A stretch of 64,000 nt of DNA. It comes from Neelides folsomi. Lineage: Eukaryota; Arthropoda; Collembola; Neelipleona; Neelidae. Each line of letters opens with the position of its first letter. The first letter of the stretch is position 1. A model generated the notes under the pieces. The model saw only the letters and a program-made list of their open reading frames with translations, did not search any database and had not been told where the DNA came from. The translations under genes and the position numbers were made by a program. The DNA lies in NCBI GenBank assembly GCA_034687125.1, contig JAQGBZ010000092.1, positions 124,001 through 188,000 of the forward strand. The letters are read 5' to 3'. Shown in pieces: positions 12,767 to 48,291 of this stretch.

Positions 12767-15700
12767 TTAATCTCCTTTGTTATAAACTTTGAGGAAATCC
12801 TGATGAGTTTTGGATTTAAAATGTTCAGGGTAAAATTCCCTGCTTTTGACAATCACTCCACAAACGTGGCATTTAAACGGAGCGTCTTGCATCTTGCTCG
12901 CAAATCTCCTCTCGTGCCAATTCATATGCAATTCATAATTTTTAATAAACTTGATCTTCTTTCCACAATGAGGACACTCGAAATTTGCCAATCTCCCGCT
13001 CTCGATCTCGCTCTCGACATGAACCTCGTTAATATGGATCCTGAGCAAATACTTACACTCGTACTCTTTGTTACAATATCCACAGGCGAGCTTTTGAGAA
13101 TGGACATGTTGGAAATGACGATTGTAGTAAACTTCCGAATCGAAGATAATCCCACATTGGAAACATTTAAATTCACCGTATTCGTCCTCGTCCTCGTATT
13201 CGTCATCCTCGTCCGAATCCGTGTCATCTTCGACCATCTGCTTTCCCTTTTCTTCCGTCTCTTCCTTTTCCTCTTCCTCTGTGTTTTCTTTATCGTCCTT
13301 CCTGCAAAAATTATTCTTGGTTTCGATTATGAACTTGATGGGAAGATCGGTGGAGGAAGAAATCGTAGTTGTGGTTGTGATCGTGGAATAATTTGGCTTC
13401 TTCCCATTCACGTTATTTTTCTTTCCAGGGTCTCTGGACCGTCGTTGCGGGGGCTTTGGCGGATTTTTATTAACTGCGACAGCAGTCGTGGGCGGCGGGT
13501 TTGAATGTTCATTATTTGGACAATTCCGCCTTTTGCAATTATTATTATTTATTTGATTATTCGATGGTTTATTAATTTTATTTCCTGGATTGCTTTTCTC
13601 CTTTGCAATCTTTTTGCTTGAGCTGGGCGGCGGAGAGATTTCCTTCCGTTTACGTTTTAATTCCTCTTTGGACCGAGTTCGCGTCCCGCACCCGCACTTG
13701 ATCTTTGCAGAAGAGTCCAGAGAAGCTTGGTTAAAATCCGGACCTTTTTTCAATTGTTTTTTCCCATTGTAAATTGGGATCCCTTCAGCTTCGGCCTTTT
13801 CCCGTTCACGCATTATTATCCGTAAGATATTTTCCATTTCTTTTTGGCTCTCTTCGGCGATTGCTTTCTTCTCTTTTGGATCCGGTTCGGCACATTTTTT
13901 AATAGACCGTTTGTGGGAATCGAGACGTTTCTTATTGGGGAATTCTTTCTTACAATCACAGGTCAAAGGTGAATGGGTTTTCCGTTTATTTCCATCTTCA
14001 ACTGGTTCGACCTTCACTTGAGTTTCACAGGGTTTATTGACGATCGGAGTGTGTTTAATTGCAGGATGGGATAAAATGGCTGGTTTCCTTCTTTGTTGAT
14101 GATTTTTGAACAATTCCTCTTTGGCGATCGTCACAGGGAGATTGATTTTTCTTTTAATTTCGGGGATTTTAATGATTTCTTTGGTTTCTTTGGGTGGAAT
14201 GGTTGGGGGTTTGATGATGAACCCTTTGGGTGTGATTTGAGTTAAAGATTCATTTCGGATATTATTTTGACTCCTGGTGCTCATTTTGGAATTAGAAGCT
14301 GGGGGTTGAACCGATGGGGGCAAAACTTTCTTTTTATCTTCAGCCTGACCTTTAACATTTGCATCCTCAGTTGTAATGACTTGAGTTGGAATTTCAAGTT
14401 GATTAACTTTAGCATTAGCTTGATTTGGATTTGGATTCGATTTTGGATTCGCTTTCGGATTTGGATTTTTATTATCTATTTGTTCTTTTTTATTTGGAAT
14501 TTTCTCCTTTGAACAAATTACATCTTTTTTAATTCGCTTTGGGTCCGGTCGAGTTTTAGAATCCATTTCAGAGACTTTTGCTAATGATTTTTCAGGTTTG
14601 ATAATTCCGTTGGTTTTCCCTTGCTCGAACAATTTCGTATCTTCAATAACAGTTTTGAAGTCTTTTTTAATTGCGAATTTCTTAAAAAGCAAAGGCTTCA
14701 AATCTGCTCGATTGCTCCGATATCTTGTCGAAACCCCCATGGGATCTGAATGCTTGTAGTCGAAATGCATTTTGACATCTCGCTGGCTTTGGAATCGAGT
14801 TGGACAAACTTTACACGCATATTTGAAATCGTCAGCTTTCCCCGAGTGACAATTGAGATGATGAAGCAGGAGGGAAAAGTCGGTGAAAGTTGAGAAGCAA
14901 AGTTCGCATCGGAATCTCTTGGGATCATCTTTCATTCTCGAATAAAGAGATTTAATTTCATCCTCTGAATTATTTACAACATTCACTTCAGCATTTTCCC
15001 CATTTTGAGTTGATTTAACCGATTCTGTTTTATGATTCGATTTGACATTGCTATTTGCTTTCACGTTGTTTGATTGAACATTGTTGTTCATTTTATTTTC
15101 TTCTTCCTTTTTCTGGGTCATTTCGGCCAGAGATTCATGTTTGATCATTTGGATTTTATTGTTTGTTTGCGGCTGTTGAACTTGTTGGATGAGCGAGACT
15201 GTGGGGGGGATTAGTGCAAATTGAATGAGGCATGATTCTGGCATAATGATCAAACCATTGGGACGAGATTCGCTCGAAATGAAATTGACGCAGTTTAAGG
15301 TCATCATCTCACTCCTGTTGTTTTGAATGGTTTTTGCAGTCTTGGAAGTTTCCTCGTCGCCATCAGAGATTTCATTCACGATCATGGGAATGACATTGTC
15401 AATGAACATGTCCAGCTCGATATCCTCATTTAAGCCTTGGAGAATCAAATTAAATTTATTTAAAGTCCTTTTACTTATTGTGATAAACTCATTTTAGATT
15501 AAATATTAAAGTTATTTTAAAAGATTTCAGTGACCCTATTTTTTATCCTAATATTAACAATAAATGAGAAAAATTTAAATACTCACTTTCTTCAATGAGC
15601 GTTGGCTCATTTGGAATCTCAGCAAGCTCTTGAATATCAATATCACAAAGCTGAATGTTAGACTCAATCAAGTCAATTAAGGACAGCGTATCTTGATGAG

Positions 15701-22526: not shown

Positions 22527-25347
22527 ATGCCTAAGAGGAATTCCTACTCTATACAATATAAATTGGCTGCAGTTAAACGGGCTGAAAATACTTCCAATGA
22601 AAGAGCAGCAAGAGATTTCAGAGTTGATGCAAAGCAAATTCGTGAATGGAAAAAGAGAAAAGAAGTTTTTGGTAATTTGGCCAATGAAAGACACGATTTT
22701 AATGTTTTAAAATACTTAATAGCATCCGATTCATATTATATAGTATAATCATTAATTTAACATCATATTATTTTAATAAATTAATAAATATTTAGAGCAA
22801 CTTGAAATATCAAAAAGAAAACGATTGCCAAAAGGAGAAGGAGAATTTTTGAATGCAGTTACTGATGATACTCTCGGATGGGCTTTGGACAAAAGATCAT
22901 TGACAGGTTTATTTAACCAATTTAACATTAAAAAGGTCATTAAATAAGTTAACTTCTTTAAGTATTTGGATGTTTCACCTTATGTCATTCTGACTTTTTA
23001 CTTTAAACGTTATGCTTCAAATACATACCATACTTAATGTATCAATTATGATTGACCAGATGGAGAGTATTCCAATGCCGATGTAATTCCCAAGGACAAG
23101 TGTTTAATTTGCTACGTGGACACTCACCATTTTCCGGGAACATTCCACGATGGATTTTCCGATCCGATTACGACCGTCCTTCGACTTTTTAATTTGGAGC
23201 AGAATTTCCCTATCATTTCTAAACAATCCACCCCTTCTTTTTGCCAAGGCTGTTTGGGCATGATTGAAGCAATTAAGTCTACATTCGACGAACTTCAAAT
23301 CCTTTTAGAAAAGACTAAACATTTTAGGAAGAAAGTTGTCGATGAAGTCATTAAAGGATACAATAAAAGTTTGGAAAATGCAAATGACAATCAAGATAGT
23401 TTTCATTTCAGAAAGAAACTCGTCGACGGTAACAATCCTAACTTTTTTATATTTGTATTTAATAAACAGTAATTTTATTCTCATTAGTTAATTATCTCTT
23501 TCTCTAGAGTTAAATCTCATGTTTGATATTGCCAACAACGATGATGAGCAATTTAATCGACCGAGTATTTTTGATAACGCCACCTTCAATGAAGAATTAC
23601 CTGAACAAAATGAAGATTCAAATAGTGAGAATGTAAATGATTCAGATCTACCAAATATAACACCCAAAGTTGAACTTCCAGACATTTCCTTTTTACACAA
23701 CGAGAATTCCGACAATACTGTGTTCGATATGGAGACTTTCGAAGAAATCGAGAGCAAAAGAAAGCTCCAAATCCGAATCGAAAAATTGTCATTGCCCTCA
23801 ATACCAGAGACATCAAATGAGGAAAATGCTTCTTATTCTCGAACTCGAAGATCAATTGATAAAACATATAAACCTGAATCCGACAAATCCTGCTCAGACA
23901 CAGATTTAGATTTTGTTCCCTCAACATCCTCAACCGTAAAGAGAAGAGGAAGGAAAAGGAGGCCAGTTGAATTTGACGAATTTGGAAATGTTGTAAAAAG
24001 GAAGCGAATCAGAAAACCCACACATCCAGATGTAGTTTATGAAAAATGTCGTGAAGCCTCTTGCCCTGTCAAATTCCGTGTGGAGGAAGGCGACGTCGAA
24101 GCTCGGCTTGAAGCCCATTACAAAAAGGTTCATTTGGGTATTAAAGCCGCTTGGGTTTGCCGAATCCCCGGATGCAATCGAAATTTCCATTCAGTTACAA
24201 CTTTAAAAAGCCACGAGGAACACGGCCACGGAGAAGACAAAAAAAGTTTCCTATGTGAGTCGTGCGGTCAAGGGTTCAAAGAATCTCATAATTTAAAAAG
24301 TCATGTGAAAAACTTCCATGCTGAAAAACCCTTTTCATGTAAAACTTGTCCGAAAATCTTCGCTACACAATTCCAATTAGATGCTCATGAGGAACGACAC
24401 GTGGGACGTTTGCCATATAAATGTTCAATTTGTGAGGAACGGTTTTTAAACAAGAGGGAACTTCAGCACCATTGTGAAACAACTGGTCATCCCATTCCCG
24501 TTGTTTTGCCTTTTAGCTTCCAAAGGAAGAAGGTCGGCCGGGGGTCGGGAAGATTTAGGAAAATGGATTTAAAGGAAATGTATTGTGTCCCATGTGATAA
24601 ATATTTTGCTTCGAGGAATTCCTTCAAACATCATGAAAAGGTTCATTTGGGAAATTTTGACTACAAATGTGATCAATGCGATTATAAGACAACAAGGCAG
24701 AAGAGTTTGGAGCTTCATCAAGTGGTGCATTCAGATGAACGAAAATTCTCATGTGAAGTTTGTGAGAAAGCGTTTAAAAGAAAACAAGTCTTAATTGAAC
24801 ACATGAGGTAATATTAATGAGTAAATTCAAAATGAACTAAAACAAACTAAAAAAGATAAAAATATTTTTTAAAATATAAATTATGGAATAATTGACATTT
24901 CATTAAATTTATTTCTAATGTTAATTTAGGAAACATACAGGAGAACGTCCTTATAAATGTGCAATATGTGAGAAGCAATTCACTGGTGCGAAGAATCTGA
25001 GAGTGCACATGAGAAGTTGTGATAAAACAATCAATCTCCGATTTGAATGCATTGTTTGTGGTATGAAATTCACTTGTCGGAGCACAATGGCTAAGCACAT
25101 TAAAACCAAGCATGAGAATTTGGGTGAAGAAGAAGTTCAGAGAATCCTCGTTGCGACAAGAAAGGACAGATGGGATAATCTCGCAAATCCAAATACAAAT
25201 CAGTTCAAAGACTTGCTAAAAGAAATGACGAACCCTCAAGATTTATCCACAAGTTCCATATCCCTAGGATCGGAAACGATGAACAATGAAGAGGCTGAAG
25301 CTGAAGGTCAAAGTGAAACTATGAATTTTATTTTACAGAGTCAATAG
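22527..25347 (+). CDS. Brinker/pogo-type HTH + ZAD + C2H2 zinc-finger regulator (gene A)
   Basis: Five exons: 22527-22671, 22796-22906, 23060-23428, 23508-24807, 24930-25347; 780 aa, all phases agree. Exon 1 is a Brinker-type helix-turn-helix (YSIQYKLAAVKRAEN, then ERAARDFRVDAKQIREWKKR). Exon 2 (SKRKRLPKGEGEF, then LGWALDKR) matches the start of the CENP-B-type HTH that follows it in pogo-like transposases. Exon 3 is a ZAD: C100-x2-C103 and C147-x2-C150, the arthropod zinc-binding dimerisation domain. Exons 4-5 hold an acidic/basic linker and about ten C2H2 fingers; the finger ending MRSC has Cys as its last ligand. A basic patch (KRRGRKRR) is a likely nuclear signal. Each domain sits in its own exon. 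It is related to gene B (28069-31452) in the finger part. Probably a sequence-specific transcription factor; targets unknown. Confidence 0.88.
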
Positions 25348-26054
25348 ACGGTTTTACACTTCTCTCCTGATTCTCCCTAAACTGTTATGGTATAGGTGCT
25401 GTATTAGTATTTCACTTTGTTTTAAATATAAAAAACGTCTATAAACATTTTCTTGTAAATATCGTTTATTTGATTAATTATTTTAGTATAATTTAAATAG
25501 TTACAATTAGATTCCGATAGGTAGATATGTATATTTTATATGATTCAATTATCAATAATGTAATGGTAATGAATAATGAACGAGAGATGTTACTTGAATA
25601 AATTCATGAACCTTATTGGAAAATCGCTTTTACATACGAGTACTATCTACAATACTTTTATGTATATTATTAATTATCTTATATGTTATGTTATATATTT
25701 TCTCTTTGTGACAAATACAAATACATACACAAATGCACACATACATATTACTCCACACATTTCATAGCAATTTATTAAAATTAAATTAGCAATTGCAGTT
25801 GCTATTAAAGTTTGTATGCCGTTTAGACTTGAATAGAAATGATCTGGTTGGGTCCCGCGAATTCATCAATAGTTTGAATCATTGATACACACGAGGACGA
25901 TAGCCGACGACGACACATACCGACACTAGGATAAGACAGTCGTATAAATCGTCATTCTCGTGTCTGAATTTGATAACTCATTCAGGGTTCATCATCAACT
26001 CACTTATTTCGTCTCAATCAATTCAATTGTTTAATTTGTCGTTAGTAAAGAAGG
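25348..26054. other. Intergenic, promoter of METTL16
   Basis: AT-rich, becoming less so at 25850-25960 just upstream of METTL16, where CG-containing sequence likely marks its promoter. No coding or RNA feature seen. Confidence 0.45.
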
Positions 26055-27441
26055 ATGATGGAAAAGTCAGAAGAAGATGGAAATCGAAGTGAATCCAATT
26101 CTACAAAAAATTTGATCTCGCTCAAAATGCACCCGAGAAATATTTATAATGGGAAATTGGATTTCGTTCAACTGGGAGAACAGTTTCCGCTTTTCAAAAA
26201 ACTGCTAAGATTTGTAAGTTTTAATTTTTCAATATGCAAAATAACATCAGCTTTGCTATATCCGTTATCCCTTTTGAATGATTTCGATATAAAAAATATT
26301 TTTATAAAATACTTCTATATGTAATTTTCCTATAGAATAATCAAGGAAAAGCTCATGTCAATTTTAAAGATCATGAAGTGCTTCGAGTTCTATGTGAAAT
26401 ATTACTCGAAAGGGATTTCCAGCTGAAAGTTGATATTCCTCAAAACTACCTTGTACCAAGACTTCCTGTTCGACTCAATTACATTCTTTGGATTGAAGAT
26501 TTATTACAAGTCTCATCAGAAGATAATGCCAACATTTGTGGAATTGATATCGGTAATGATTATTGAATTATCAAATCATCAATTGGCAATGACACAGTCA
26601 GTTTAATAAACATTTATAATAATGTGATTTCGTTTTTACATAGGATGTGGTCCTGTTGCGATTTACTGTTTACTCGCACATAAGAAGAATAATTGGGAAA
26701 TGAAGGGGACCGACATTAATTTTGAGTCAATTCAAAATGCAAAAAAGATTGTTGACGAGAACAAATTGGAAGATAATATTGAAGGTATTACAATTTACTA
26801 TTTATTTCATATTTATGTATTAAAAATATTTACAAATGAAAAGTTTAAATAATAATTGTTAAAATTAATTTGTCAATTAGTGATATTCGTGGACGGTACT
26901 GAAGTGTTTGACACTCAAAGATTGTTCAAAGGCGATTCGACTTTTTCTTTCACAATGTGCAATCCTCCGTTTTTCTCTTCCAAAGAAGAGGCCAAAGGAA
27001 CAAAAAGAAGGAGAAATGCAAAAAGGGCACGACCACCTCCGCAAGGAGATCCAACTGGAGTCGAAGCAGAACTTATTGTTGAAGGTGGAGAATTGACTTT
27101 TATTGAAAAGCAAATTGAAGAGTCTAAAAAATTAAAAACATCTGTCTGGTAATATTTGTTTTAATAAACATAAATATCAAAAAAATCAACATTGTATGAG
27201 TTTGAGTAAATTAAAAATATTATACAACAAAAATCAAAATCAATGATGAGTTTTTTTTAATTGGGCTTGTTTCTTTTAAAGGTTCTTTACAACAATGATT
27301 GGAGTCAAAGCTCATATGAAGCCATTAGTAAATAAGCTTAAAGCAGAGAATATTAAGTATACAACTACAGAATTTTGTCAGGGACGAACGATGAGATGGG
27401 GTCTGGCTTGGACATTTACACGAGATTTTCCCAATAAATGA
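26055..27441 (+). CDS. METTL16: METTL16-type RNA N6-adenosine methyltransferase
   Basis: Five exons: 26055-26213, 26336-26552, 26644-26784, 26881-27148, 27282-27441; 314 aa. METTL16 methylates adenosine in U6 snRNA and, in mammals, MAT2A mRNA hairpins, using S-adenosylmethionine. Family marks: MHPRN.Y...LDFVQL near residue 25, KVDIP.NYLVPRLPVRLNYI, the SAM-binding motif GIDIGCGP, the catalytic CNPPFF (N200-F203), and TEFCQGRTMRWGLAWTF near the end. It stops about ten residues after this last motif, so the vertebrate C-terminal conserved region (VCR) is absent, as I recall for the fly homologue. The start could also be the second Met (26058). It sits between two zinc-finger paralogues with no functional link apparent. 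All catalytic residues are present. Confidence 0.95.
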
Positions 27442-28068
27442 AAACAATTCCACCTTGGACATTTCCATCTCTAACAATGGGATCAAATTCGATCGTTGAT
27501 ATTATAAATATTAGTACAATGTTTGTATTTTACACACAATTGTTTCATTTTATTACATTATTAATTTAAAATATAGTAAAATTTATCGCCATATATTTAT
27601 TTTATTACACATCGTTGGAATCATTCAAACACTCATGATTTTCCCAAGTTAAATATTTATATTTTAACTATTTAACTATTTGATTTATAAAATAAAGTTG
27701 CAGCATATAAGTTTATTATCTAAAAGTAAGATTATTTATTTATGAATGAGGTTATTTGGTGAAATACCTTTTACGCAAGGTTAGTTATTGCGAAAAATGT
27801 CTTTACCTGTATATTTGACTAAATTCCTTATAAAAGAAAAAGATTTTCTGGTTTTGTTTTGACTTTTACTTTTATTGACAAAAATTCTTAAATTGCTCAT
27901 TATTCTAATTGAGTTTCTGAATTTCAATCGAACTTGGGCCGATAAAAGATTGACCGTAGTAATTTGTTCGTAAAAACCAAACGAGTAATTCATATTTTCT
28001 CTTTGTGACAATTGTGAGTGGTTGTGAATCTTACTTTTTATCTTTTTTAATTTATTAATAACATTAAA
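27442..28068. other. Intergenic spacer
   Basis: AT-rich DNA with the METTL16 3' UTR (AATAAA at 27691) and the promoter of gene B. The minus-strand open frame 27781-28272 is a shadow of gene B exon 1. Nothing else supported. Confidence 0.5.
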
Positions 28069-31000
28069 ATGAGCGAGCTGACAATGAGTGACGAAATAAA
28101 ACCTAATCCGAACATGATCAAGCAAAAAAGGACAATGTTGAGTTTGAAAGATAAGGCTGGGATCTATGCGGATTTGGATGCGAATGTTAGTCGAAAGGTC
28201 ATTTACGCCAAGTATAATATTGTGAAATCGACACTGACAAGGCTTATTAAAAAAAGACCACTTATCGAACAATCATTCACTGAAATGTCTGAGGTATTAA
28301 ATATTAAACTCACATTAAAGCTAGTTAAAATTATAACCAACCAAACCCAGGGTGTAGTATTTCCTCTTTTTAATTGCTAGTTAAAATTCATTACCTCTTA
28401 TTTTCATTTTCATTCTTTAACAAATTGCTTTTAAAAAAATTCATTTGTTTTAGAATATGAAGAGGGTGAGAAAATCAAAATATCCCGAATTAGATGATCT
28501 CCTTTTCCAATGGTACATCAATCGTCTAAATGAAACTCTTCCCATCAATTTGAGAATCCTTGCTGATCAAGCAAACTATTTTGTTGAACAATTAAATCTG
28601 AAGGAAAGTATTGGGATCGTCACAACAAGCTCGAATTGGATATTCAGATTCAGAAAAAGACATGCTATAACTTTCCTAACTGAAGAGGCTTACGAAGGTC
28701 CAAATGTTGATTTACCTCATGGACAAAATCCACAAGAAAATTTTTCAATCCAAGAACAAGACCAAATAGAAAATTATGTAACAGAATTTACAAATGATCC
28801 CAACTCATTTAACAACGTACCTCCAGAGGAAAGCTCTTCATTAGAAAGTAATAAATAAAAATACTTTTAAATAAAAATCGATCGTTTTGGGGTTATAATC
28901 AAAAATATTTTATACCTGTATTAATTATTTTAAAATGAATTACAGGGATGTTAAATTGTTTTATCTGCTTTGATAAAATTCCATTTTCGGATGAATTGAC
29001 AAAGCAAACAGTTTCCTCTCAAGCAGTCACCACTTTAGTTAATTTATTCGAAGAGATAAAAGGAAAAAGCTCCATGCAGAAACGAGCAACATATAAAGCC
29101 ATGCTTTGCTACGTCTGTCTTGGCAAGGCTCAAGTTGTTGAGCAGTTGTTGAAAAATATTGAAGAAATCAAAGAAAAGTTGTATCATTTCCATACTGAAA
29201 TCAAAGGAAGGGTCCTTCAAAGTTTCCATCAAACCGAGGATTTGACGACTGAACAACTTCAATTAGCCGATTTAGGAAATACGAGAAAGTATTTTGTTGA
29301 AGGTAAAAACTTTAATTACTCATTTTATCTTTACCAATTTAAGTTTCTATATGCTAATAATCTTATCTTTAATTATATAATTATTATCAACAATGTATTT
29401 TTTATAGAATTAAAGCTTTTGCCACAAAATGACTCGCCATTAAAATCTCAAAAGTCAAAGAAAGCAACTCCAAATTTACACATGAGATATATGAGACCCG
29501 TACCAAAGATGAAAGATGATTTTATCAATGAAGATGAATCAAATGAGAATTTCGTCCAAGTCAAAACAGAACCCGATGAAGAATATTATGAAGAGGAAGA
29601 TTATGACGAGAATTACATTCAATCAGCAACTATCTACGACGACGATTATTGTCCTGAAATTGATTCCTCTGATACAATCTCAGAATCAGAATTCCAAGAA
29701 GAAATCAATTACAATTTCAATGGTCTTAATTTCACCACCACCACAAAAATCTTTTCAAGTTTAATGAACAAATCAGCCAAACTGGAACTTGTCCGACTCG
29801 AAGACATGGAAGAATTCAAAGACTACATTTTATCAGACGAATACACTGTCACACTCCCAAATAAATACACAAGAAGAAGGCCAAAATACTGCAGGAAGAA
29901 AATCATCATACAAAAGAATAAAAACCAGAATTCGGTTCAACCAGGAGATTTGCCCCTCAAGGAACGCATTGAGCTTTTAAAATCCAAATACCCGCCATCG
30001 GCCCAAGCCGGTGAAATCCAATATTGTGATTTTCCCAAATGCACTTACAGGTCAAGAAGTAAAGTGTACATAGAAGGTCATTACAAAATCGTTCATTTAG
30101 GAATTCCAAAACCCTTCGTTTGTGATTATCCTGATTGTAAAAGTGAATTCCGCCAATTTCATCATTTGGAAGAACATAAGATTTCCCACACTGGGGAAAA
30201 TCCATATTTGTGCGATGTATGTGCAGCTCCTTTCAATAATTATTACACTATGAGAAAACACGCGAGTGAAAAGCATATCCAGAAACCCTGCCAATGTGCC
30301 ATTTGTCCAAAGTCTTTTAAAACGGAATTTGAACTGCGGGCTCATGAGAGGAAACACAATGGGATGAAACCTTATTTATGTATTGTGGTAAACTGTGGAT
30401 GTGATTTTGATAATGTCAACTTTTTGGAGTATCATCATAAGGAAGCTCATCCGGAGATTCCTTTCATTCTCCCAGATTCAACTCCAGTACAAGGAGAAAG
30501 GAAAAGGATTTTGAGATATGCAACAATTCCACCTTTGAGAAAGAGAAAAGATTACAAAAGAACAAGTCAAACTAATAAGGTCAAAATTAAAAAGAGGAAA
30601 GAATCGTTGCTGGATTGTAAATGCGAATTTTGTGGACATATCTTGTCATCTGTTAAAGCACTCAGGTTCGTCTATTACAATTTAATTGCCTATTTAATTT
30701 TTTATATAATATTTTTCAAAGTTTATTAATTTGATAAATTATTTTTTAGAAATCATGTAAAAGCTCATAAAGGAGAATTAGATTTCGCATGCGAAGTATG
30801 CCCATTTAGAACAGCCACGGTGAGTTTTCTTATTTTAATTTATGTCAAACATGAAATTGAATCATATAAAATTAATAAAATGACATTATTTAATAGATTA
30901 AGATAAGAGTAAGTCGTCAAATTAAATTAATTTAATTGGCTTGATTATTTATTAAAGATAACCCGACTAAGAGAGCACATGATTTCTCACAACGAACGAA

Positions 31001-31452
31001 CTTGGAAATGCGAGATTTGCGACAAAAGCTACAAAAGGAGCGTTGGGCTTATCGAACATAAACGAATTCATACTGGAGAAAGACCTTACATTTGTCCTAA
31101 ATGTGGAAAATCCTTCACAACCCATAAAAACCTTCGTTCGCATCTTGGAAGCTGCGACAAGGAAAAATATTGCAATTATGCGTGTCCTTTGTGCTCTTCA
31201 AAATTCCCCACAAGATCCGTTTTCACCCTTCATCTTAAAAAACATCGCGAGTGTACTGCAGAGGAAATTGAAAAACTAATTGTGGAAACGAGACGGACCA
31301 ACAGATACGCTACGAATGAACAACTCCAAGTGGAACCAGCAACTTTGGCAATTCCAATTGCAAAAAGACCTAATTGGTTCCAACTGACTGAAATGGACCA
31401 TTCTACCAGTTTTCCTGATGTTGGCGCTTCAGCTTCAGATTCCAAAGTGTAA
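28069..31452 (+). CDS. CENP-B/pogo-type double HTH + ZAD + C2H2 zinc-finger regulator (gene B)
   Basis: Six exons: 28069-28293, 28454-28847, 28946-29302, 29408-30665, 30750-30819, 30958-31452; 932 aa. Residues 20-70 are a CENP-B N-terminal HTH (KRTMLSLKDKAGIYADLDAN). Residues 76-145 are the second, CENP-B/Tc5-type HTH (KSKYPELDDLLFQWYINRLN, then SNWIFRFRKRHAI). Together they form the DNA-binding half of a pogo/Tigger transposase; no DDE catalytic domain follows. Next is a ZAD (C211-x2-C214, C261-x2-C264), an acidic linker, and about ten C2H2 fingers. Finger order and spacing, including a conserved break (HPEIPFILP here, HPIPVVLPF in gene A), show that genes A and B are paralogues. The 105-nt intron 29303-29407 has no stop and keeps frame, so a retained-intron form is possible. 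AATAAA at 31624. Confidence 0.88.
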
Positions 31453-45448: not shown

Positions 45449-48291
45449 CATTGCAGGACAGGACGCAAATCACTCATTACAAATTCTAGTCCCACTCATT
45501 GTTCCAATAATTAATTTACAGTTAACATTACTTTCTGCCCATTTAAATAATAAATAGCTTTTAAAATACACAAGATGGTAGTTAATTGTGCCGTTGCTGA
45601 GTGCAATCAAATTGGAAAATATAAAAAGATATCATTTCATCGATTTCCATTAAAAAATTGTCATTATTAAAAATTTGGAAATTGAGTTACCTGCGTAAAG
45701 ACAAGAGTTTTAATCCCTTAACAGCTTATATCTGTTCTGATCATTTTAAATTGACCGATTTTGAACGAAGGGCAGAATATGAAGCTTTGAACGAACTATA
45801 TACCAAAAGATTAAAAACCGGCATTGTTCCAACAGTGTTTTTAAATCGGAAATCACCCGAAGTTCCAAATGAAAGAACTGCACGAGCTTGTAGAAGATTA
45901 AACGAAGCATTAATTATTGATGGTAAGATTTATTTAAACAAAGGTAGATTGGAATTTATATGTTGAATATTATTATAGTAATGTATTATTTTAGAAATTG
46001 AATCAAATGATGAAGTGGAGTATCCAGTGGGTCATGTTTGTACATCGGCACAAACAGAACGATTGGAATCGTTTCATTGCCATTCACAGATATTCAAGGT
46101 ATTAAAAATTGCTTTAAAATATTATAATACATAATTATTATTTAATTTCTATTAAGAATATTAACTAATTGTAATTTTATTTTATAGGCACATTAATGGA
46201 TGATGAAATAAACAGAAAGCTTACCGAATACGAAATAAAAATTTCAAGTTTAGAAAATGAATTGAGATCTCTGAAGCAATTACAACGAAAAGCTCAATTC
46301 TTAGAACCAGCAATGAAAGGAATTAAAACAAGATTTTCAAACTCGCAAATTAAAATGGAGTGAAAAGGATATTGTTTCGGCACTTGCACTAAAAAGAGTT
46401 TCACTAAAATCTTATGCAACTGCGCGTTGCAAGTGGAAAATCCCGTTGCCTTGTCCACGCACATTACAATATTGGATGAGAAACTTTGCCTGCTCGAAGG
46501 GACTTCTAATGGACGTTTTAGCAGTATTGAAAAAACATCAGAAAACATTTGCCCAAGAACAAGAATTTGCGGATTATTATTTGATGAAATGGCGACAGAT
46601 TCCTCATATGTACGTGATCCTACTCTTGATCAAATTTCATCCCATTCAAAGACTCAAATGGTTATGTTAAGAGGACTTTGTGAGCATTGGAAACAACTGA
46701 TTTTCTACAATTTTAATACAAAAATAACTAAAGAATTGTTATTCAATATTATCATGGAAATTGAAAAGTGTGGCTTTTCAATATATTCAGTTACCTGTGA
46801 TCTTGGGCCAGACAATCAGGCCTTTTTCAAAATATTAAGTGTTAATGAAAACAAATGCTCATTTAACAACCCTTTTGACCAATCAAGGAACATCTACGTT
46901 TTTGCCGATCCACCGCATATGTTGAAATTAATTAGGAATCATATTTTGGACGATGGTGTTGAACTTGAAGACGGTACAATAATAAACAAAGAATTATTCG
47001 AAGATATGTTGTCAAATAATGGTCTCGAAGTGAAATTATGCCCAAAATTATCACAAGAAATTCTGAATGTGAAACAAGCAGAAAGAATGAGAGTCCGCCC
47101 TGCTGCTCAATTGCTTTCTAATCGGATCGGCACTTGCAAAATATTTGTACCCAAACCTTCGATATCAAACTTTTTCAAAATCATTAATGACGGACTCGAT
47201 GTCATGAATTCTCGCTTTCGAGAAGATCAAAACAATCCTCTTAAATGTGGTTTTGGACTAAAGTTAGAATTACAACTTGTGGTCTTAGAAAAGTTTTATT
47301 TTTTGAAATCCATGAAAAACAAAAAGAAGTGTCAAATACCATGCCAAAAAGGTTTCATAGGTAAAAGGGTACTGTTAATTCACTTAAAAGTTTGTATACG
47401 GATTTAAATGAAAATCATTCAATTACTTATATTTTATCGTCTTATGTAAATCAAGATGCTTTGGAAAGTTTATTTTCAATGATAAGGAACTTTAAAGGTT
47501 CATCAAATTCCAACCCTGATTTTGCCTCCTTTAAATATCGACTTCGTTTAATTTTGTTAGGTTCTAAATTAAGAGAGCCAAAAAACACCAATTCTTTGTA
47601 TGATGATGTAAGCTCTGAGTTATTGAGTAATAAGAATTGCCATTCATAAATTTCTCCTATTCAATCTAAAAGCTTAAATTCTTTCAACAAAAGCAAAGAT
47701 ATAGTTAATATGACGAAAAAGGTTTGAGATTTATTTTAAGATATATCGTATGGAAAATTAAAAGAAAGGGTAAAGGTATATTTGGAACTCCTACATCTTT
47801 TGCGCCTGAGAATTTAACTGGGTGGATTGAAACTCTTTCTCGTGGAGGTCTTTTAATTCCATCTGAATACATTCATAAATTTGTAGTTTGGAATGATGTT
47901 AATGTTAGTGATAAGTTAAAAAATCGGTTACAATACATTTCTTGATTCTAATCTCGACATTGTTAATGAGTATGTAAAAGTTCGGATAAAGATCAGAGTA
48001 AAGAAATTAAATTCAACTAAGGTTTTTAAGTATATAAATAATAGAAAAATGAAACAATTTGTTAAAAGCGGCAAGAATAAAGCAATTAATTAAAATTAAA
48101 TTTTTCGATTATTATATATGTTCCCGAGTCATTTAATTTGGCATATTGATTAGTTAGTTAAATTATTAATTGGAAAAAAGCAACACACTAATTTTAATCT
48201 CATGCTACCTTAAGTTCATTATAAAATTTCATTGGTTTATATGCATTTCTGGTAATGTATTAATATATGGAATGAATGGAGTCCTGCAGTG
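45449..48291 (+). mobile_element. P-element-like DNA transposon with THAP domain, decayed
   Basis: Coding remains run from ATG 45575 to about 47945. In order: a THAP zinc finger (CAVAEC, FHRFPL, ICSDHF, ending IVPTVF); a short exon; a coiled coil (LENELRSLKQLQ); the P-element transposase region (SEKDIVSALALKRVSLKSYA, LPLPCPRTLQYW, FADPPHMLKLIRNH); the C-terminal block (YVNQDALESLFSMIRNFKG and SFKYRLRLIL); and the tail RGGLLIPSEYIHKF. The frame shifts within the THAP domain (after about 45660), again near 46560-46650 and near 47400, with stops, so it is not functional. Candidate terminal inverted repeats: CTCATTGCAGGAC at 45447-45459 and its near complement at 48281-48293, giving a length of about 2.85 kb, close to the classic P element. 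No clear 8-bp target duplication. Confidence 0.8.

Follow-up and report, generated by a model that had tools for sequence, protein, structure and literature searches.

Two adjacent genes of the collembolan Neelides folsomi, which we call A and B, are probably host C2H2 zinc finger genes of a ZAD-like family that have each, independently, captured helix-turn-helix (HTH) exons from a pogo transposon. They lie on contig JAQGBZ010000092.1 of assembly GCA_034687125.1 (75.1 Mb, 840 contigs), within a window of 64,000 nucleotides (positions 124,001 to 188,000 of the forward strand) whose own numbering we use below; the contig is C92 in this analysis, C-numbers denoting contigs and L-numbers loci of this genome. 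Gene A (22527–25347, + strand) is modelled with five exons encoding 780 amino acids and gene B (28069–31452, + strand) with six exons encoding 932 amino acids. Both models rest on predicted splicing with GT-AG introns, are open from ATG to stop, and place the HTH and host parts in one frame, as an earlier reading of the stretch from its letters alone (hereafter the sequence-only reading) had it when it described the HTH exons as in phase with the following exon.

Exon 1 of A (22527–22671) encodes an HTH of the BrkDBD type, and exon 2 (22796–22906) encodes the linker KRKRLPKGEGE and then the beginning of a Tc5-type HTH, a stump that ends after about the first helix. Searched against Pfam, this N-terminus scored 28.2 bits with BrkDBD (cut-off 23.4) and 21.7 bits with CENP-B_N, narrowly over the cut-off of 21.2. 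A profile of A and five resident relatives from the same genome reached Brinker (2glo) at an E-value of 0.075 and no better, its best match in the PDB being the small protein 2jn6 (Cgl2762; E 0.0036). In B, exon 1 (28069–28293) encodes a CENP-B_N HTH (22.6 bits, cut-off 21.2) and exon 2 (28454–28847) a complete HTH_Tnp_Tc5 (about 28454–28705; 43.7 bits, cut-off 22.2) followed by a tail that matched nothing else in the genome at E ≤ 0.01. The B sequence alone matched the DNA-binding domain of CENP-B (1hlv) with both of its HTHs, over residues 20–145 (E 3.1e-8), and a profile of B with its resident relatives did so at E 1.4e-16. A single-sequence AlphaFold model of exon 2 of B had a predicted local distance difference test score (pLDDT) of 43 and was not used. 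The domain assignments of the sequence-only reading, a Brinker-type HTH plus a CENP-B-like start in A and a CENP-B N-terminal HTH plus a full Tc5/CENP-B HTH in B, hold for both genes, with the correction that the second HTH of A is a truncated one.

The genome contains resident pogo elements of two kinds, BrkDBD-type and Tigger-type, and the HTH parts of A and B match different ones. Against donor profiles built from residents only (9 BrkDBD-type and 5 Tigger-type sequences), the HTH of A scored 61.5 bits with the BrkDBD-type profile versus 1.9 with the Tigger-type profile, and that of B scored 140.2 bits with the Tigger-type profile versus 14.3 with the BrkDBD-type profile; the first HTH of B is 62% identical to an element at C192. 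The first introns follow the same division. Exon 1 of A ends in phase 1 at the intron position of the resident BrkDBD-type elements, 8 of the 10 compared having the same phase 1 donor with the codon split G|GT (L026 has G|GC and L021 neither; L020, L072, L074 and L075 stood outside the comparison). Exon 1 of B ends in phase 0 (EMSE|gt), where the resident Tigger-type elements have their intron, and a like phase 0 donor after the SE codons occurs in two of the three compared (L002 and L005), the third, L003, having the same donor letters as B but out of frame; L017, L019 and L037 stood outside this comparison, and for the acceptor only L002 was compared. The parts look as if they were taken as exons, since an intron of each gene matches its own donor kind in position and phase. 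Together with the separation by resident profiles, these lineage-matching first introns support two independent captures, of a BrkDBD-type pogo part by A and of a Tigger-type part by B, in line with the earlier proposal that different pogo-type DNA-binding parts had been captured, perhaps by exon shuffling. A search for terminal inverted repeats around A and B found only short, mostly AT-rich pairs, none of which looked transposon-like by eye.

The host parts of the two genes are related to each other. In each array we count, by eye, five fingers, a basic break and five more fingers, as the sequence-only reading had noted in pointing to a shared finger order with a conserved break; a pattern search returned 9 fingers in A, the first finger being irregular, and 10 in B. 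Exon 4 of A (23508–24807) encodes an acidic linker, fingers 1–5, the break, fingers 6–7 and the start of finger 8 (numbered by eye), and exon 5 (24930–25347) the end of finger 8, fingers 9–10 and the C-terminus. The fingers of B are spread over exon 4 (29408–30665; acidic linker, fingers 1–5, break and start of finger 6), exon 5 (30750–30819; end of finger 6 and start of finger 7) and exon 6 (30958–31452; end of finger 7, fingers 8–10 and C-terminus). The Pfam model zf-C2H2 was over its cut-off for the main array of A and for the last finger exon of each gene, and no finger model was over its cut-off for the main array of B (zf-C2H2 20.7 versus 25.2, zf-H2C2_2 38.5 versus 40). The A and B fingers align with 35.7% identity (E 2.3e-61). 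When part of the A array (254 amino acids) was searched against the genome, the best non-self place was B (2.8e-21; 149 of 533 candidates scored), and the searched part of the B array (213 amino acids) returned A (5.3e-22; 150 of 463 candidates scored). The intron after the exon that precedes the fingers, which encodes a domain with four cysteines (C4), falls at the equivalent residue and in the same phase in both genes (VDE|LNL and VEE|LKL). These reciprocal best matches among the scored candidates, with the matching intron, support the view that A and B are paralogues, as had been claimed.

The C4 domain is encoded by exon 3 in each gene (23060–23428 in A, CLIC...CQGC; 28946–29302 in B). It belongs to a family found throughout the genome, with 26 places at E ≤ 0.001 in one search, A among them, and 53 when weaker places are merged, a number that includes matches with E up to 1 or 10, of which some may be false. 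Members of this C2H2 family, such as L041–L048, L051–L054, L059, L063 and L070, occur genome-wide, many of them clustered on contig C66. Among 19 aligned members, two CxxC pairs are present N-terminal to the C2H2 fingers, and no column other than the four Cys is invariant. These pairs, the N-terminal location and the helix predicted to come next are reminiscent of a ZAD domain. Profile evidence for a ZAD was not obtained: zf-AD gave no Pfam match for A or B at E ≤ 1; it was absent among the best 25 of 46 Pfam families for the 19 members, which had no common model among these; the 36 matches up to E 10 in a PDB profile search of the family included no ZAD; and a fold search with a two-row model of the B domain (pLDDT 67.7, middling) gave no PDB match at E ≤ 0.001. 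A search of the genome with zf-AD found one place only, L001 (C248:17626), at 26.1 bits, below the cut-off of 28. An intron splits L001, whose sequence looks like that of a canonical ZAD, and hhalign gave a probability of 2.3% for the C4 family against L001; true ZADs seem to be rare in this genome, or split and missed. Since neither the zf-AD profile nor the PDB profile and fold searches recognise the domain, the label ZAD given by the sequence-only reading is not supported, and we write ZAD-like and claim no membership.

Most members of the family start at this domain. In a survey of 30 loci (L041–L070), reduced to 20 rows after dropping repeats and loci that lacked the pattern, two rows being A and B, a Met precedes the first Cys by two or three positions in 15 of the 18 others. 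The three exceptions are L050, where the pattern caught another stretch (a separate family listing gives its start as KMECLIC), L058, which has a longer N-terminus, and L069, which is a finger stretch and not a C4 domain. As other members mostly start at the C4 domain, the HTH exons look like additions in A and B. B retains a Met of its own, three positions ahead of the first Cys (MLNCFIC, at 28948), and the ZAD-like exon of A has no in-frame Met before CLIC; A therefore cannot start at the C4 exon and needs an upstream exon.

Among the HTH places examined, only those of A and B sit beside a gene of this family. After merging there were 42 HTH places, A and B counted among them, and 53 ZAD-like places, and an HTH place within 1 kb upstream of a ZAD-like place on the same strand occurs at A and B only; two such adjacencies compare with 0.0148 expected (Poisson P(≥2) 1.1e-4). 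The surroundings of CENP-B_N and HTH_Tnp_Tc5 places were taken as 38 loci, of which L006, L008 and L023 correspond to A or B; the other 35, with flanks of 1.5 kb or less, gave a finger-like match at L012 only, a single one on the opposite strand. For 9 of the 18 BrkDBD places, a scan of sense frames of 55 amino acids or more about 2 to 5 kb downstream found fingers or the C4 pattern in none of the nine. None of the 30 DDE_1 places listed in the genome falls on the contig that carries A and B, so that by this list both lack the DDE_1 domain of an intact pogo transposase, as had been stated; for 11 of the 42 HTH places, a DDE_1 place lies no more than 3 kb away. Two other loci, L032 (C377) and L035 (C137), contain frames with an HTH (Tc5 24.3 and 20.9 bits, cut-off 22.2) and with no listed DDE_1 place within 3 kb, the one at L035 being followed by a strongly acidic frame; both may be additional domesticated genes encoding DNA-binding parts only.

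The HTH of B has been under purifying selection, as judged from codons that do not vary among the residents compared (two or three of L002, L003 and L005), at which we counted 23.5 nonsynonymous changes at 85.0 sites (0.28) versus 17.5 synonymous changes at 17.0 sites (1.03, saturated). For A, pairwise proportions of nonsynonymous (pN) and synonymous (pS) differences were 0.39–0.46 and 0.67–0.90. Of 2000 simulated runs of neutral decay to 20% divergence, 3.5% (A) and 0.05% (B) left the HTH frame without a stop. The HTH exons had positive codon scores and the introns negative ones.

Several observations weigh against reading each gene as one fused unit. The joins between HTH and ZAD-like parts are predicted in both genes, and the donor used for this join in A (CAG|GTTTAT) is not strong. 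An open GT-AG join was also allowed by random gaps in 281 of 500 and 237 of 500 cases, and we rejected such a join as proof of fusion, since random gaps permit one about half the time. In B, the own Met is placed as in most family rows, the frame of the HTH part ends 11 nucleotides past exon 2, and the 98-nucleotide intron between the HTH and ZAD-like exons (28848–28945) contains three AATAAA motifs, a number reached in 65 of 5000 shuffles; this intron is possibly an alternative poly(A) site after the HTH exons. The selection values for A are pairwise rather than specific to the A branch, some of the selection signal may be older than the capture and stem from the time as a transposon, and the training of the codon scores included some of the tested introns, the true frame not being singled out in the HTH exons of B. 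The B acceptor two nucleotides before the ATG was dropped as a sign of fusion: by eye, 3 of 15 family starts (L042, L046 and L053) have an AG within 2 nucleotides, so the acceptor is not telling.

Because B retains the family start codon and has three AATAAA in this intron, it may be two genes, and perhaps A as well: a small pogo-derived gene encoding a DNA-binding part only, with its end about 90 nucleotides before an ordinary ZAD-like finger gene with its own ATG. We think this unlikely, while giving it serious weight. The family-type MLNCFIC, the position of the three AATAAA around the stop of the HTH frame and the selection that the HTH exons show by themselves all fit two genes. However, with no Met ahead of CLIC, A depends on some upstream exon, which need not be one of the HTH exons, and the gaps of 153 nucleotides in A (22907–23059, without AATAAA) and 98 in B are intron-sized, falling within the 79–160 nucleotides spanned by the other seven introns of the two genes, whereas local gaps between genes are about 560–710 nucleotides with gene ends as read. 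AATAAA is moreover no sure sign of a gene end here, because other introns of these genes contain it (two in A1, one in A3 and one in B5). B may also involve trans-splicing or an operon.

A single capture by the shared ancestor, followed by divergence of the two HTHs until they resembled different pogo kinds, would suit paralogues with HTHs at an equivalent place and ZAD-like exons that start in phase 1 in both, but we consider it very improbable, since each HTH fits a different resident lineage far better and the first introns follow the position and phase (1 and 0) of those lineages. That the pogo fragments were inserted upstream by chance and are part of no product seems to us hardly credible. 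HTHs of this kind are common in the genome, as the 42 merged places show, but the expected number of such placements is 0.015, the frames have no stops, pN is well under pS for B, and the contig has no listed DDE_1 place.

Independent capture of pogo HTH exons by two host genes is the reading that we favour. The parts, their frames, the two donor lineages, the matching introns and the purifying selection on B we regard as demonstrated at the level of sequence, and the steps behind them may be pictured as follows. The ancestors of A and B would have been paralogous C2H2 regulators of a ZAD-like family that mostly starts at the C4 domain. A pogo element would have landed just upstream of each, a BrkDBD-type (POGK-like) element at A and a Tigger-type (CENP-B_N/Tc5) element at B, and, separately in the two genes, splicing would have exonised the 5’ exons of the element into an N-terminal DNA-binding module, the catalytic part being lost. 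The donor-lending step is modelled, by analogy, on published host-transposase fusions. The product would have two reading heads, the HTH and the ten-finger array, joined by a presumably zinc-binding and possibly dimerising domain; we infer zinc binding, dimerisation, DNA targets and an effect on transcription for A and B. Their most likely targets would be sites descended from transposon ends, or host sites, to which chromatin factors might be recruited. A bolder proposal, which we hold to be rather doubtful, is that the ZAD-like pair is a capture hot spot, whose 5’ end would have acquired DNA-binding exons twice from two pogo lineages that persist in the genome, and that the HTH head finds pogo-derived sites at which the fingers and the C4 domain act, host genes thereby policing transposons with DNA-binding parts of transposon origin. 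Taken as a whole, the sequence-only reading is sustained as to paralogy, two lineages and exon-wise capture; it is not sustained as to ZAD identity, and its splice joins are a prediction.

The gene between A and B we take to be METTL16, from its NPPF motif. Elsewhere in the window, a 908-amino-acid open frame on the − strand (12767–15493) has, by eye, a few C2H2-like fingers and long charged linkers, and frames at 45625–47407 resemble, again by eye, a THAP domain and a P-element-type transposase. In the segment 42001–46000 the G+C content is raised (0.37–0.43), the GC skew is strong (0.19), and both strands carry long frames that overlap. On the mitochondrial contig of this genome, genes named by eye within the first 10,000 of 15,157 bases follow an order of the arthropod type.

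Fusion of host and transposase parts is thought to yield new transcription factors, and Cosby et al. 2021 is reportedly a large survey of such fusions, in tetrapods. We know of no ZAD protein with an HTH. The sequence-only reading had gone further in stating that no family with this architecture has been described. This fits the literature among the matches listed, in which no published title or abstract start combines a pogo HTH with ZAD-like C2H2 fingers, but host-transposase fusion as such is known, as are POGK and POGZ. The portions available of PMC10027918 and PMC10547256 do not show the architecture; the words 'fusion', 'C2H2' and 'ZAD' are absent from the text of the former and 'transposase' from that of the latter. 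The words pogo, CENP-B and C2H2 are likewise absent from the text of PMC12062965.

The ZAD-C2H2 proteins of insects are alike in having an N-terminal domain with four Cys before C2H2 fingers, and the ZAD domains of flies can dimerise, according to the part available of PMC5081699; they differ in that the zf-AD profile fails on the C4 domain of A and B. The vertebrate pogo-derived proteins POGK (BrkDBD/HTH_Tnp_Tc5, DDE_1 and KRAB) and POGZ (HTH_Tnp_Tc5, DDE_1 and fingers) similarly join pogo HTH types to KRAB or zinc fingers, as described in the accessible portion of PMC7386202, which reports the DDE domain as fully retained in all domesticated genes studied. In contrast, the retained DDE that marks this class was found for neither A nor B among the 30 listed DDE_1 places, and the order of parts and the host parts differ. 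In the F-box A2 genes of Caenorhabditis, the HTH of Mos1 was captured, as described in the available part of PMC12062965, which screened 10 million proteins. As in A and B, one branch of a multicopy family captured the HTH only, and, as in B, that HTH is under purifying selection; unlike A and B, the host is an F-box family, the donor a mariner element and the origin single, and the HTH is reported not to act in transcriptional regulation.

A close parallel to our proposal is offered by the host-transposase fusions, in which a transposase DNA-binding part is joined, by splicing according to that proposal, to a host regulatory domain (Cosby et al. 2021, as cited in the available portions of PMC12062965 and PMC8616336). 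A and B share with these the joining of such a part to a host regulatory domain, with splicing as the proposed route, and they have a traceable transposon lineage, one frame by predicted splicing and, for B, purifying selection. They differ, so far as those portions describe the fusions, in that, by our reading, parts of two lineages were captured by neighbouring paralogues, whose introns stand where the donor kinds have theirs. What is new here is that both donor kinds are resident in the same genome and that each gene has an intron at the position of its own donor kind, so that capture by exons may be read directly, and twice, in sister genes. The mechanism of capture and its repeatability thereby become testable, in proteins with two unlike DNA-reading parts whose targets may be guessed from the ends of the donors.

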